DNA from: Candidatus Saccharimonadota bacterium
Lineage (GTDB): Bacteria; Patescibacteriota; Saccharimonadia; Saccharimonadales; UBA4665
Assembly (NCBI GenBank): GCA_028289265.1
Contig: JAQGGU010000017.1
Coordinates: forward strand, 1-13,338
DNA: 13,338 bases
Direction of reading: 5' to 3'
Position 1 is the first letter of the stretch. Every line of letters starts with the position of its first letter. Position numbers and translations under genes: made by a program. The notes below the pieces were generated by a model. The model was not told the origin of the DNA. It saw only the letters and a list, made by a program, of their open reading frames with translations, and made no database searches. Positions 1,258 to 7,292 of this stretch are shown here, in pieces.

Positions 1258-3381
1258 CTACCTTTGGTAGCGGGTACGAATTGAGGACCGGATCCGCTCT
1301 ACGGCAACTAGGCCTAGTCCAGCCGAACCGACAGTCATGAGCGCAATACTTAGCATGCTCATGCTACCGTCGGTAGCTTGCTTATTGACAGACGTATTTG
1401 GCTTGAGTGCATTGTTACGGCTAGAGCCGATGACTGCGCCCGCTTGGCGGACCACATCACTGGAACCGGAGCCGCCGCCAGTAGTACTAGAGGATGTTGA
1501 ACCGACAGGCGTCAAGGTAAGTTTCTCTTTATGAGAGCTGTGTGATCTATTTGAACCGCCAGAACCCGCGCTCGTAGGCACGAAGGCGAACACTTTCGCA
1601 TTTTTGAATGCTTGCTCAACCCCGCCGCCTTGGCCAGGTATAGCTGCCCCTGATGTAATCGGCGCCACTACTGGCGGTTTAACGACACCGAAGTTACCAT
1701 GCCAGGCGCCAAATACGTTGATGAAGAGTACACCGAACCAGTTGGACAGACTAAAGTTGCTATTAATAAGATTTGCGATATTGGCGCTCGCCGTAGCATT
1801 TCCGGTGGCTACACTGCCTACGTCATCATTATTAGTAGCTGCCGCATTACCACTGGTAGCGCGGGCAGTAATGTTATTAGTAATACCGTAGTTTTCATTA
1901 TTTGTACTAGTAGAACTATTCGCGAGGGCCGCATTACTCGAGACGCCACCGCCAAGTGCCGCCGAAGTCGTACCTGCAGGCGCATCCATAATCAGACCCA
2001 CCCATGTACCAAGGACATTTACAAATACCAGCAGACTGTTAGCGGCAACGACTTGGCGTCCCGTGAGATTGAGGATGGTCAAATTCGTAAGTCCGTCACC
2101 CGTAGTGACACTTCCAACATCATCATTGTTGTAAGCGGTAGCACTACCGGAAGCTGCGGCAAGATCTACATTATTTGAGACATTGGCATTAAGGTTATTG
2201 GTGGTATTGGAAGTTGTATGCGCAGATGTATTCGCGGCATCAGCAGTTGCAAGTAATGCGTTTAATGAATCAGCTGGCATTAGAATATTTCCCGTATAGT
2301 CACCATATATATTAATGACGCCCAAAAAGGACTGGTTGGCTGCCACAACAGAATTAATCATATTTACCACATCGGCTACTGCATTCGCATTGCCAGTGGA
2401 CACACTGAGGACGTCGTCATTATCCTCGGCTGTAGCGTTACCGCTTGTCGCTGTCAGATTGATATCATTTCTAATCGTTCCATGTGTTTGATTATTTACA
2501 GTAGCGTTAGCAAGGTTAGCCGTGTTCGCGGCAGCTGGCTGCATGAGTGTAGCCGGATCTATCAACAGATCTCCGGAAACATTACCCTGGATGTTTTGAG
2601 TAAAAGTCGCAAGACCTGTACCCGTAAATGAGGCCTGGGACTGGAGCATGTTAACGATATTTGCCATAGCGTCCGCATTACCGGTACTGACGCCGCCTAC
2701 ATCATCATTGCTTATAGCCTGGGTGTTGCCACTTTTGGCCACTGATAGCAGCTGGTTGTCCATGCCTACTTTAGTGGTAGTGTCTACATTCGAATTGTTT
2801 CTATTATTTTGATTTTCCTGGTGATTGGCTCCGGACAACCCGTCAGTACCGCTACTCCCGTCACTAGGTTGCGGAGGTGAAGAAATCTGATCGGTATTCG
2901 TATCTGACTTTGGTGATGTCTCACCCATAACATCCTCTGGCGATATTGCAGGCGTATCGTTATTATCGGTCGCAGCAGGACCCCCATGCGTAATCGCACC
3001 TGCTGGGGGCGTTGAAACCGCGACAGGAGTCTGCTCATATGCACTATGGGATGCAACGTACATCCATATGGTTGTATCCCACAATCCTGTGGCCGGATTG
3101 TAAGTATATTCCACTGGAACTTTTGGGGTGGTTTCCCTAGTGGAAGGATCAAACGTATAATAATCGTTTTCCCAAAGCCCTGTACTTTGATTGTAGTGAT
3201 AAGTTACCGAATCTGACCCGGTAGGGCCGTTTTCCGGACTTGATTCCGACGTAGAGGCTGTTCCTTCTGCGTTCTGTGTCGTTTCATTCTGCGCCATTAC
3301 TGGGGCTGGCGTCGCACCGACGAGCATAAGTACGGCTATAACCGTAAAACTTCGTTTCAGCATCTCTCTGATCTTATTCAT
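1258..3381 (-). CDS. Large secreted, membrane-anchored repeat protein with four NDDV beta-repeats
   Basis: No named function recognised; a cell-surface structural or adhesive protein is inferred. Residues 1-31 form a signal peptide: basic start, hydrophobic core, cleavage likely after APVMA. At about 58-120 there are two copies of an aromatic unit containing Y.YN..TGLW (61-70, 92-101). A Ser/Pro/Asn/Asp-rich linker runs to about 195. Four repeats follow, each with the pattern SGNA.A..NDDV.SV.TGNA.A.AN, a stretch like NLINS, then F.GV..I.V.G.W.GN. The conserved Asn of NDDV falls at 225, 321, 419 and 518, a spacing of 96, 98 and 99 residues. A Gly/Ser linker (about 585-640) leads to a C-terminal hydrophobic helix (about 674-692) and a basic tail RIRSSIRTRYQR, a typical outward-facing anchor. 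GGGAG precedes the ATG by about seven bases. It is the last of three minus-strand surface-protein genes; no promoter is obvious in the 130-base gap before it, so co-transcription with the 200-aa gene is plausible. Confidence 0.85.
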   Translation of the reverse strand: MNKIREMLKRSFTVIAVLMLVGATPAPVMAQNETTQNAEGTASTSESSPENGPTGSDSVTYHYNQSTGLWENDYYTFDPSTRETTPKVPVEYTYNPATGLWDTTIWMYVASHSAYEQTPVAVSTPPAGAITHGGPAATDNNDTPAISPEDVMGETSPKSDTNTDQISSPPQPSDGSSGTDGLSGANHQENQNNRNNSNVDTTTKVGMDNQLLSVAKSGNTQAISNDDVGGVSTGNADAMANIVNMLQSQASFTGTGLATFTQNIQGNVSGDLLIDPATLMQPAAANTANLANATVNNQTHGTIRNDINLTATSGNATAEDNDDVLSVSTGNANAVADVVNMINSVVAANQSFLGVINIYGDYTGNILMPADSLNALLATADAANTSAHTTSNTTNNLNANVSNNVDLAAASGSATAYNNDDVGSVTTGDGLTNLTILNLTGRQVVAANSLLVFVNVLGTWVGLIMDAPAGTTSAALGGGVSSNAALANSSTSTNNENYGITNNITARATSGNAAATNNDDVGSVATGNATASANIANLINSNFSLSNWFGVLFINVFGAWHGNFGVVKPPVVAPITSGAAIPGQGGGVEQAFKNAKVFAFVPTSAGSGGSNRSHSSHKEKLTLTPVGSTSSSTTGGGSGSSDVVRQAGAVIGSSRNNALKPNTSVNKQATDGSMSMLSIALMTVGSAGLGLVAVERIRSSIRTRYQR

Positions 3382-3425
3382 ACCATCTCCCTTCGGTCAC
3401 TTCTGATTCAGTCACTAATCACTGG

Positions 3426-3462
3426 TGTCGGAGGAGCCTCAAATGCCGTGACTCCTCCGACA
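3426..3462 (-). terminator. Strong 11-bp hairpin between the 200-aa and 707-aa genes
   Basis: Bases 3426-3436 (TGTCGGAGGAG) and 3452-3462 (CTCCTCCGACA) pair perfectly around a 15-base loop. On the minus strand this lies 49 bases after the stop of the 200-aa gene and 44 bases before the start of the 707-aa gene. There is no T tract after it in either direction, so it may be a partial terminator, an mRNA processing or stabilising element, or a 5' leader structure of the 707-aa gene rather than a simple intrinsic terminator. Confidence 0.5.
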
Positions 3463-3511
3463 TGCGTATTACCTGATTTGGGCAAAACGCTTAGCAATCA
3501 ACCTTATCTTC

Positions 3512-4114
3512 TTAGTTTGAAACACTAACGTCAAAGACTGATGTATTGGTGTTTGAAGCGTCACCACTAGTGATGTTTCCACTGACATCATCGTTGTCTT
3601 CTACGCGAACATCGCCGCTCTCCGCACTTTGGTGCGTGGAGTTACTGACATATACATTGGTATTATTTCGGACCTCTGTGTTGTTCGAGTTTGAGTGACT
3701 AATCCGGTTGTATGAGTTGCGGCCCGAATCGTTTATAGAAGCGTCGCCCCAATCATTACCACCGCCAGAACCGCTACCATGGAACGCACTGTTGCTAGAT
3801 GATGAATTATCTACGTCGACACTAGCTTCCGTCCAGTTGTCATTAGTAGCATCACCGCTCGTAACATCGGCATCAACGTCATCATTGTCTTCGACCTTCA
3901 CGTTACCTGAATCGGCCCGCTGTGAAGTGTGATTGTTTAATTTGACACTGGTATCATTGCGCACTTCTGTCCGGTTGCGATTCCTATATTCGATGACGTT
4001 TCTAGAGTTTCGACCTGAGTCATCAATTGATGCGGCACCCGCGATACCAGTGAAGCCGGCTACAAGAGCTATAGAAGATGCTACAGTTGCTGAAATTCGT
4101 GTAAGTTTGTTCAT
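3512..4114 (-). CDS. Small secreted protein made of two 97-residue NDDV repeats
   Basis: No named family recognised. The 200-residue product has a signal peptide (about 1-27, cleavage near GIAGA-A). The rest consists almost entirely of two tandem repeats. Repeat A starts at residue 28 (ASIDDSGRNS) and repeat B at 125 (ASINDSGRNS), exactly 97 residues apart; the NDDV cores at 77-80 and 174-177 are also 97 apart. Each unit runs SGRNS, then TEVRN.T.V, then SG.V.VEDNDDV, then TSGDA. Alternating polar/hydrophobic residues suggest short beta-strands. Composition is extremely rich in Asn, Asp and Ser, with a Gly/Ser hinge (about 112-120). It lacks a C-terminal anchor. The two copies differ at many synonymous codon positions while keeping the same residues, so the duplication is old and the protein sequence is held. 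A strong AAAGGAG lies six bases before the ATG. The unit resembles that of the adjacent 707-aa protein, suggesting related or co-assembling surface components. Confidence 0.85.
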   Translation of the reverse strand: MNKLTRISATVASSIALVAGFTGIAGAASIDDSGRNSRNVIEYRNRNRTEVRNDTSVKLNNHTSQRADSGNVKVEDNDDVDADVTSGDATNDNWTEASVDVDNSSSSNSAFHGSGSGGGNDWGDASINDSGRNSYNRISHSNSNNTEVRNNTNVYVSNSTHQSAESGDVRVEDNDDVSGNITSGDASNTNTSVFDVSVSN

Positions 4115-4274: not shown

Positions 4275-4790
4275 TTAATGATTGTTAGTACTCGAGGAAT
4301 GCATACGTACGTGAAGACTACTGCTGTGGCTTTCCGACTGGTTGTCGGAGCTGATGGATGTGTCGGTACTGTTCTGTATTGACACATCTGTGCGCGTACT
4401 GTTATTTTCATTCTCCGAAGTATACGTTTTATCAAAGGACTCATTTGGACCCACTGTTTGTTCCTCGCCATTCACAGTCACAGTTGTGCCTGTATTATCC
4501 GAGGATACTGATGCGTGGTATTCATTTGAGACATCTTCATTCGGAGTCGTGTTATTCATCGTTTCCGTACCTCCTGGCTCGTCGACTTCAAGGGCATTGT
4601 TCTGCGCAGAGGACGGCGTACTTACCTCTGAGCGCACGGGCTTCACGGCATATACTATCCATGCAGCGGCGATAATCGCCGCGACCGCAATATATATGAC
4701 CGACAGCCGGACGTGTCGCAGCATAGTGAATATAGGTGAAGGAAGATGTTCACCTATCACCGTAAATCGTGCGCGAATTCCTCTTGTCAT
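4275..4790 (-). CDS. Type II membrane-anchored Ser/Thr/Asn-rich surface protein
   Basis: Function is not recognised. The 171-residue product has a basic N-terminus (Arg at 4, 6, 8, 25, 28), then one hydrophobic helix at about 30-48 without a convincing cleavage site. By the positive-inside rule the remaining 120 residues face outward. That part is low-complexity, rich in Ser, Thr, Asn, Asp and Glu, with alternating patterns such as TVTVNGEEQTV and RTDVSIQNSTDTSISS. These loosely echo the TEVRNNTNVYVSNST stretches of the neighbouring 200-aa protein, but without a clear NDDV repeat (only NEDV at 84-87). AGAGAGG sits six bases before the ATG and decides this start over the internal Met23. It is the first of three minus-strand surface genes; a 160-base gap separates it from the next. 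It might anchor or assemble its neighbours, but this is context-based inference only. Confidence 0.75.
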   Translation of the reverse strand: MTRGIRARFTVIGEHLPSPIFTMLRHVRLSVIYIAVAAIIAAAWIVYAVKPVRSEVSTPSSAQNNALEVDEPGGTETMNNTTPNEDVSNEYHASVSSDNTGTTVTVNGEEQTVGPNESFDKTYTSENENNSTRTDVSIQNSTDTSISSDNQSESHSSSLHVRMHSSSTNNH

Positions 4791-6025: not shown

Positions 6026-6883
6026 ATGGACAAAGTCAAAACATTTACCCGTAAAATTGATGCCTTCCAACGTTCGCACACAGCGTTAGCTTTCCCAGTA
6101 GCCGTAGTGAAACGTTACGGTGACGAGGAGGCCGGCAAGCAAGCTGCGCTCGTTACTTACTATGCATTTCTATCAGTATTCCCATTGCTTTTGATCTTCA
6201 TTACCGTGCTTGGTATTGTCGTTTCCAGCAATCCTGAACTTGAGGCTCGCATCACAGAAAACGTCTTCCACCTATTTCCTGCACTTAGCCGTGACCTCCA
6301 GGATAATGTACATACCCTGAAAAGTAGTGGACCAGCGCTGGCACTACAAGCGCTTGTACTACTGTATGGTGCGCGCGGACTTGCTAGTATACTGCAAGAT
6401 ACGTTTAATAATCTTTGGCATATCGCTAAAGAGCACCGTCCCGGCATACTTGGCGACTATGCTCGTAGCTTCGGGATGATGATCGCCGTAGGACTGGGCA
6501 TGATTCTCGGATCGGTCCTCAGCTTTGTACTGACTAGCGTTATACACCTGGGAATTATCGGGGTTATATTCATCAATCTAGTTAACGTTGCTGTAACTTT
6601 CGGACTCATACTCCTGGTTTTTAGGCTGGGGACGTCAAATAAGATCAGCCTAAAGAAACTGATACTGGGCGCGGGTATCGCTACCATCGGTCTGATAATA
6701 GTCCAAATTCTCGGAGGCTACATCATGTCCGAGCACTTACCTAAACTTGAAGGCTCATACGGCTCATTTGCCATCACGCTCGGTCTGCTATTTTGGATAT
6801 ATCTACAAGCACAAGTCCTCCTATACGCCATAGTAACTACAGTCGTACGCACTGAAAAAGATTGGCCTAAGAAGCTTTTTTAG
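6026..6883 (+). CDS. YihY/BrkB family inner-membrane protein
   Basis: The product has 285 residues, the usual size for the YihY/virulence factor BrkB family, polytopic proteins of uncertain function (once misnamed RNase BN). Six hydrophobic segments lie at about 41-67, 103-120, 149-170, 173-199, 211-233 and 247-272. Family hallmarks seen are AALVTYYAFLSVFPLLL near the start, a central ILQDTFNNLWH, and YGSFAITLGLLFWIYLQAQ near the end, followed by a short basic tail (TEKDWPKKLF). No SD precedes the ATG; TATAAA at 6017-6022 (or TAATCT at 6011-6016) lies a few bases upstream. It may be translated from a leaderless mRNA or from a transcript of the gene 27 bases upstream. Its last 17 bases overlap the end of mscL on the other strand. 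Confidence 0.9.
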   Translation: MDKVKTFTRKIDAFQRSHTALAFPVAVVKRYGDEEAGKQAALVTYYAFLSVFPLLLIFITVLGIVVSSNPELEARITENVFHLFPALSRDLQDNVHTLKSSGPALALQALVLLYGARGLASILQDTFNNLWHIAKEHRPGILGDYARSFGMMIAVGLGMILGSVLSFVLTSVIHLGIIGVIFINLVNVAVTFGLILLVFRLGTSNKISLKKLILGAGIATIGLIIVQILGGYIMSEHLPKLEGSYGSFAITLGLLFWIYLQAQVLLYAIVTTVVRTEKDWPKKLF

Positions 6884-7292
6884 CAGTAGGCTGCACCTTT
6901 GTCGTGCAATACATACAGCGCGTAGCAGCAATAGGAATTTCGCCCAAACATTCAGGGCACTTATGAGTTGTGGGGTCGGGCGTTGGCTTCTTTTTACGCG
7001 CCAGTTCCATAAGTCGATTCAAGGGCTGTACTACCAGGAAGAATACCACCGCGGCAGTCAGTAAAAAGGTAATGAGGGTATTCAGGAAGTCGCCGTACGG
7101 GAATGCTACTCCGTTGAGCTCAAATGCATACTTTGAAAACTCACGGTCGCCTTGGACGGCCGCAATAAGAGGCGTCAAAAAGTCCTTAACAAAAGCAGTC
7201 ACTACGCTAGTAAATGCAGCACCAATAACTACCGCAACCGCCAAGTCGACAACATTACCGCGCAGGATGAATTTCTTAAACTCCTGTAACAT
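6867..7292 (-). CDS. mscL: Large-conductance mechanosensitive channel MscL with C-terminal zinc ribbon
   Basis: MscL forms a homopentameric membrane pore that opens under membrane tension and releases solutes on hypo-osmotic shock. The 141-residue product opens with MLQEFKKFILRGNVVDLAVA, the classical N-terminal helix and TM1 (about 15-43); TM2 is at about 68-90 (NTLITFLLTAAVVFFLVV). Instead of a plain cytoplasmic helix the C-terminus has two CxxC pairs (Cys112/115 and 126/129), a zinc-ribbon tail found in a subset of MscL proteins. AAGGAG lies eight bases before the ATG. A possible promoter (TTGAAA, 17 bases, AATAGT) overlaps the 3' end of the upstream flippase-like gene. Its end overlaps the converging YihY-family gene by 17 bp. 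Confidence 0.95.
   Translation of the reverse strand: MLQEFKKFILRGNVVDLAVAVVIGAAFTSVVTAFVKDFLTPLIAAVQGDREFSKYAFELNGVAFPYGDFLNTLITFLLTAAVVFFLVVQPLNRLMELARKKKPTPDPTTHKCPECLGEIPIAATRCMYCTTKVQPTAKKAS

Follow-up and report, generated by a model that had tools for sequence, protein, structure and literature searches.

A conserved pair of exported repeat proteins in Patescibacteria as candidate anchored and free components of a cell-surface assembly

How ultrasmall Patescibacteria build their surfaces and hold on to their hosts is, to our knowledge, little understood beyond type IV pili. A stretch of 13,338 nucleotides from a Candidatus Saccharimonadota bacterium (assembly GCA_028289265.1, contig JAQGGU010000017.1; hereafter the window), located on contig C75 of a genome of 896 kb that is 83% complete, raises the question of what two neighbouring minus-strand genes contribute to such a surface. 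The upstream gene encodes protein B (200 amino acid residues) and the downstream gene, after a gap of 130 nt, protein A (707 residues). Both proteins start with a signal peptide as judged by eye, have a high content of N, S, T, and G, and contain a repeat with the core NDDV. The analysis leans, by a modest degree, towards A and B being the anchored and the free component of one cell-surface assembly, in which their repeats stack as rungs and B polymerises on A.

A sequence-only reading of the window had placed NDDV at residues 225, 321, 419, and 518 of A (steps of 96, 98, and 99) and at residues 77 and 174 of B (step of 97), and these positions proved exact; self-comparison peaked at 98/99 for A and at 97 for B. 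The SGN or SGD box that was said to precede each core was found in general, but not in A repeat 3, whose upstream box is SGS. The period of about 97 residues likewise holds in the window, but the unit itself is a core of about 52 residues plus a linker, and in distant members of the phylum the repeat spacing was mostly about 90 residues in B and about 90–120 in A. That A and B contain a common module is secure. Profiles of the A repeats and the B repeats matched with an hhalign probability of 96.9% (E 1.7e-10), single A repeats matched the B repeats at 96.0–96.7% each, and the repeat profile matched 175 of 3653 open reading frames (ORFs) in 85 loci selected because the family is present, compared with 0 of 3653 after the same ORFs were shuffled. 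Because of the hhalign match and the difference between real and shuffled ORFs, the likeness of the repeats is more than chance. No Pfam or NCBIfam model exceeded its cut-off for the module or for either protein, in agreement with the earlier failure to recognise a named family. At E values up to 1, Pfam returned no family for A or B of the window, the chaplin domain PF03777, the curlin domain PF07012, and the SLH domain being among those absent.

The six repeats aligned column by column across A and B, and in alignments including the window (96 rows for A, 54 for B) the conserved columns alternated from about −26 to +26 around the central asparagine, a region wider than the NDDV core. Upstream of this asparagine were Asn at −16, Ile or Val (in A) or Asn (in B) at −14, Ala at −10 and −5, Val at −3, and Gly at −7 in every aligned row; downstream were Thr at +1, Gly at +4, Gly at +9 or +10, and Ala two positions later. 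Both alignments contained Gly and Asn columns that were invariant or nearly so. NDDV did not hold up as the defining motif, since D at +1 was a minority letter (9–11% in the four A repeats and 29% in the two B repeats); it is the spelling that one lineage gives to a wider signature, SG[ND]A.V..NT..G...[ST]G[ND]A. Conservation at alternate positions is the pattern of a beta strand that buries one of its faces. Among the A homologs, P0036 (1155 residues) carries a long block, repeats included, that is present twice nearly unchanged and reflects either a real duplication or an assembly artefact.

The pair and its gene order are also securely conserved. At least 1418 of 7995 scored candidates were A homologs at E ≤ 1e-3, and the named records holding a relative of A were mostly Candidatus Saccharibacteria; 55 of 511 candidates were B homologs, with lengths clustering near 195 and 290 residues. 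A strong A match (E < 1e-90) was found in 21 of the 98 genomes searched, including the genome of the window itself, and in all 21 B was encoded directly upstream on the same strand, the B match being weak in G055 (22.6 bits) and that in G052 (32.7 bits) coming from a separate search. In the loci taken from genome contigs, B was directly upstream of A in 51 of 53, the other two being L036, which had no B, and L050, which was cut at a contig end. A sample of 379 genomes of the phylum contained 31 that matched the B profile and 34 that matched the A profile. Among the 31, B was followed by A on one strand in 28 and weakly so in G384 (B, 17.5 bits), and G009 and G073 were without the pair. The 28 include G103, in which B and A are separated by about 1 kb and no C-terminal helix was found in the A-type protein. 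With profile matches in 31 to 34 of the 379 genomes, this conserved and unnamed pair is a specific candidate for another surface filament or coat besides type IV pili. The pair was also present in two records with unrelated titles, Rhodoglobus sp. (JAODAV010000056.1, L021) and Chlamydiae bacterium (CAJCIR010000050.1, L023); these contigs are probably misbinned, because the ORF lengths and scores of L023 equal those of L064 from the sampled relative G026.

The two proteins differ in how they end, as had been proposed from the window: A finishes in a C-terminal membrane helix, and B, which terminates in its repeat (...VFDVSVSN), has none. A C-terminal hydrophobic helix was found in most A-type relatives. 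In at least six distant B-type proteins, the C terminus is a hydrophobic tail outside the repeats, and no LPxTG motif with a membrane helix, as in sortase-polymerised pili, was found in the distant B-type tails. In the distant classes, two to four repeats were detected in B and mostly two to four in A, with six in L132.

The two proteins are also linked by covariation. Across 69 loci that contain both, column i of the A repeats covaried with column i of the B repeats (mean 0.0754, permutation standard deviation 0.0073), a value reached in none of 5000 permutations. The signal was present at offset zero only, the values at column offsets of 1–4 being −0.004 to 0.010, and it held for 51 loci within L001–L053 (z 8.8) as well as for 15 distant loci (z 6.3). 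In 19 pairs, consisting of the window and 18 contig-matched A–B pairs, D at +1 was present in every repeat of both proteins in seven, mixed with E in both proteins in one, and absent from both proteins in eleven. The majority letter of this D column was the same in both proteins in 66 of 75 pairs (46.7 expected) and different in nine; D was present in only one of the two proteins in L023 and L043. On a tree of A with the repeats masked, the D column changed 11 times in A and 11 times in B. Supported branches gave six independent pairs for comparison; B took the direction of A in a mean of 5.5 of them, and in none did it move against A (median p 0.031, range 0.031–0.125). Columns 22, 24, 28, and 33, which were picked after the fact, showed 18.5 changes the same way and 0 the opposite way, and the other 46 columns were balanced at 39.6 and 39.7. 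The simplest explanation of same-column covariation is that A rungs stack in register on B rungs, although a shared ligand could also produce it. The proposed co-assembly of A and B by stacking is thus supported, but indirectly. These coordinated changes predict which A goes with which B.

The suggestion that the repeats form a beta-solenoid received partial, indirect support from structure models. AlphaFold2 models agreed with it in secondary structure. The central parts of the A repeats had a predicted local distance difference test score (pLDDT) of 93–98, and the low-confidence model of B placed strands at residues 38–68, 72–75, 79–85, and 89–102 in repeat 1 and at residues 135–165, 169–172, 176–182, and 186–199 in repeat 2. 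The fold matches were weak and non-significant. Foldseek returned five for the B model, namely FapC twice, SufB, CsgA, and SufD, all of which we take to be solenoids, and the A model was aligned by VIA with 4qrk (first to last aligned residue 204–538, 87 residues) and with FapC (199–559, 120 residues). Stacked rungs in both proteins are suggested because the alternate-residue conservation with a conserved Asn is accompanied by fold matches of solenoid type. The N-terminal domain of A was modelled with pLDDT block means of 91–96 over residues 51–130; this stretch of the window had no Pfam match, and weak pointers led to DUF3836/4r03 and OCRE.

The B–A gap of the window folds into a stable RNA hairpin, with a minimum free energy of −42.7 kcal/mol (z −3.30) that none of 200 shuffles equalled. 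The 67 other B–A gaps had a mean z of −3.0, with 49 below −2, compared with a mean of −0.72 and 12 below −2 for 66 same-strand gaps taken as controls from those loci. The gap matched no Rfam family, and in the window no T tract follows the stem. The message of a major subunit can stay abundant when a stable stem follows the gene, and the hairpin may in this way raise B over A.

The first alternative, which we regard as fairly unlikely, is a complex of fixed stoichiometry or an S-layer-like coat in which B uses the shared rung to cap or decorate A. The conservation of the pair and the covariation would follow equally from it. However, the number of repeats detected in B varies among 2, 3, and 4 while B stays beside A, the stable hairpin after B suggests unequal amounts of the two proteins, and there is no S-layer domain among the Pfam matches of A or B. 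Still less probable is that A and B never touch and that each binds the same partner, such as a glycan, an ion, or the host surface, which the shared columns would then track. The clustering of the covarying columns 22, 24, 28, and 33 at one turn, where D could hold a cation, fits this idea, as does the finding that both members of a pair repeatedly show a D, T, N, R/K, or Y/M state; against it, columns 22, 24, and 33 are mostly Ala or Val and look buried rather than ligand-facing. Gene conversion, which can occur as repeats of neighbouring genes recombine, would keep the A and B repeats alike and leave the covariation silent on assembly. It is very improbable, because the six NDDV copies in the window carry six different codon strings; moreover, identical residues share a codon in 12–62% of cases over the 15 repeat pairs, and fixed differences separate the proteins, column 15 being Q in 74 of 75 B proteins and mostly L, S, or A in A. 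That two exported proteins of similar N-, S-, T-, and G-rich composition resemble each other through low complexity is hardly credible, being contradicted by the shuffled-ORF scan, the Gly and Asn columns, and the pLDDT of the A repeats.

In the reading that we prefer, stacking of A and B, each core of about 52 residues would form one rung, shaped as a beta-arch or Greek-key-like, whose turns would be the SG[ND] and [ST]G[ND] boxes. The rungs would stack in register into a beta-solenoid from which the linkers loop out. B, which has two rungs here and three or four detected in other classes, would leave the cell by its signal peptide and, because it has no membrane helix, could polymerise end to end; a polymer would be the likeliest outcome of A–B stacking. 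A, with its four rungs, N-terminal domain, and C-terminal helix, would seed or anchor the stack on the membrane, and the assembly would be attached to the wall by a separate repeat protein that has an LPxTG-like signal and whose gene adjoins a sortase gene in many relatives. The ladder residues, that is, the NDDV column and its neighbours, would switch together in the rungs of both proteins. At close to an even chance, though slightly below it, the pair represents a previously undescribed functional-amyloid-like fibre system of many Patescibacteria classes, in which B assembles on membrane-held A and on sortase-held cousins by a lineage-specific stacking code.

The mode of action of the pair may resemble that of chaplins, curli, or Fap, and the sequence tests that were run place it in none of these systems. 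The chaplins of Streptomyces, as described in PMC5618241, have a single domain common to short free and long anchored proteins, which are proposed to co-assemble and so, through sortase, to fasten an amyloid layer to the cell. The division into a short free and a long anchored protein resembles that of B and A, but the anchor of A is a membrane helix, and the sortase-type repeat protein is a further component here. In curli, according to PMC10192328 and PMC12822426, the repeats of the subunit CsgA are stacked in-register solenoid rungs and a minor subunit, CsgB, nucleates them, as proposed here for B and A. Curlin repeats are about 23 residues long, in contrast to the core of about 52 residues in A and B; among the 54 aligned B proteins, PF07012 matched one (E 0.032). 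The Pseudomonas Fap system comprises the fibre subunit FapC, whose repeats form layers with loop linkers and Asn/Gln arrays (PMC12392863), and the nucleator FapB. Neither its sequence nor its fold matched A or B significantly, and the likeness of the AlphaFold2 models to FapC was weak. The B profile matched no PDB chain at E values up to 10 and hence no FapBC repeat, whereas a query built from the published FapC motif found 9u4u and 9nqd. The SG-to-SG distance is 16–17 residues in A and B and shorter in the printed FapC motif, and the membrane helix of A is a further difference.

The coordinates of the features are collected in Table 1.

Table 1. Features of the A–B locus and their positions in the window
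Feature	Coordinates	Strand	Basis
Protein B, 200 aa, with signal peptide (by eye) and two repeats; membrane helix absent from the C terminus	3512..4114	-	ORF list, sequence, homologs
B repeat 1 core, residues 38–102, NDDV at 77	3809..4003	-	Low-confidence model, columns, profile
B repeat 2 core, residues 135–199, NDDV at 174	3518..3712	-	Low-confidence model, columns, profile
B–A gap, 130 nt, strong RNA stem-loop, 13-bp stem at about 3426–3462	3382..3511	-	Minimum free energy vs shuffles
Protein A, 707 aa, with signal peptide, beta domain at the N terminus, four repeats, a stretch of low confidence, and a membrane helix at the C terminus	1258..3381	-	
A N-terminal beta domain, residues 52–135, repeated Y.YN..TGLW motifs	2977..3228	-	pLDDT
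A repeat 1 core, residues 197–249	2635..2793	-	DSSP strands, central pLDDT blocks 95–97, columns
A repeat 2 core, residues 293–345	2347..2505	-	Central pLDDT blocks 93–98, columns
A repeat 3 core, residues 392–440	2062..2208	-	Central pLDDT blocks 96–97, columns
A repeat 4 core, residues 491–539	1765..1911	-	Central pLDDT blocks 97–98, columns
A C-terminal membrane helix, residues 676–706, basic tail	1264..1356	-	Helix H676–706, pLDDT block means 75–83
Protein C, at most 171 aa, with a membrane segment at the N terminus and a T/S/N-rich tail containing a VNG core	4275..4790	-	Upstream-family profile, 54 bits

A third conserved gene upstream of B encodes a protein of about 180 residues with an N-terminal membrane segment. 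By clustering, this family was found in 34 of 75 loci, always on the strand of A and at a median offset of −2.0 kb from it, and by profile in 47 of 85 loci at any position in the locus; protein C of the window belongs to it. The second neighbouring family is a sortase, with 27 ORFs in 25 of the 75 loci (PF04203 above the cut-off in all four members tested). Near 24 of these 27 ORFs, a further repeat protein was encoded on the same strand within 800 nt; by eye, 20 of the 24 proteins contain LPxT[GAS] before a C-terminal helix, three contain LAxT[GS], and one contains neither. The genome of the window encodes four sortases, one of which adjoins a repeat protein on contig C28 rather than on the window contig; this protein (L156) has 232 residues, a single repeat, and a C-terminal helix. 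On contig C62 of the same genome (L157), an ORF of 117 residues contains NDDV and one detected repeat.

Two further families were found near the pair. A conserved protein of about 240 residues with one membrane segment by eye (L142, L160, and L140) was encoded in 8 of the 75 loci, upstream of B in seven of the eight; the member tested had only a sub-threshold match, to DUF4830. A Crp-type regulator, assigned by the member tested (L035), was located near A in 19 of the 75 loci, on the strand of A in 14 of the 19 and mostly just downstream. Elsewhere in the window, positions 6867–7292 (minus strand) encode the mechanosensitive channel MscL (126 bits); a stretch with four cysteines that follows it at the C terminus bears a weak likeness, below the cut-off, to zinc ribbons (UPF0547 and DZR).
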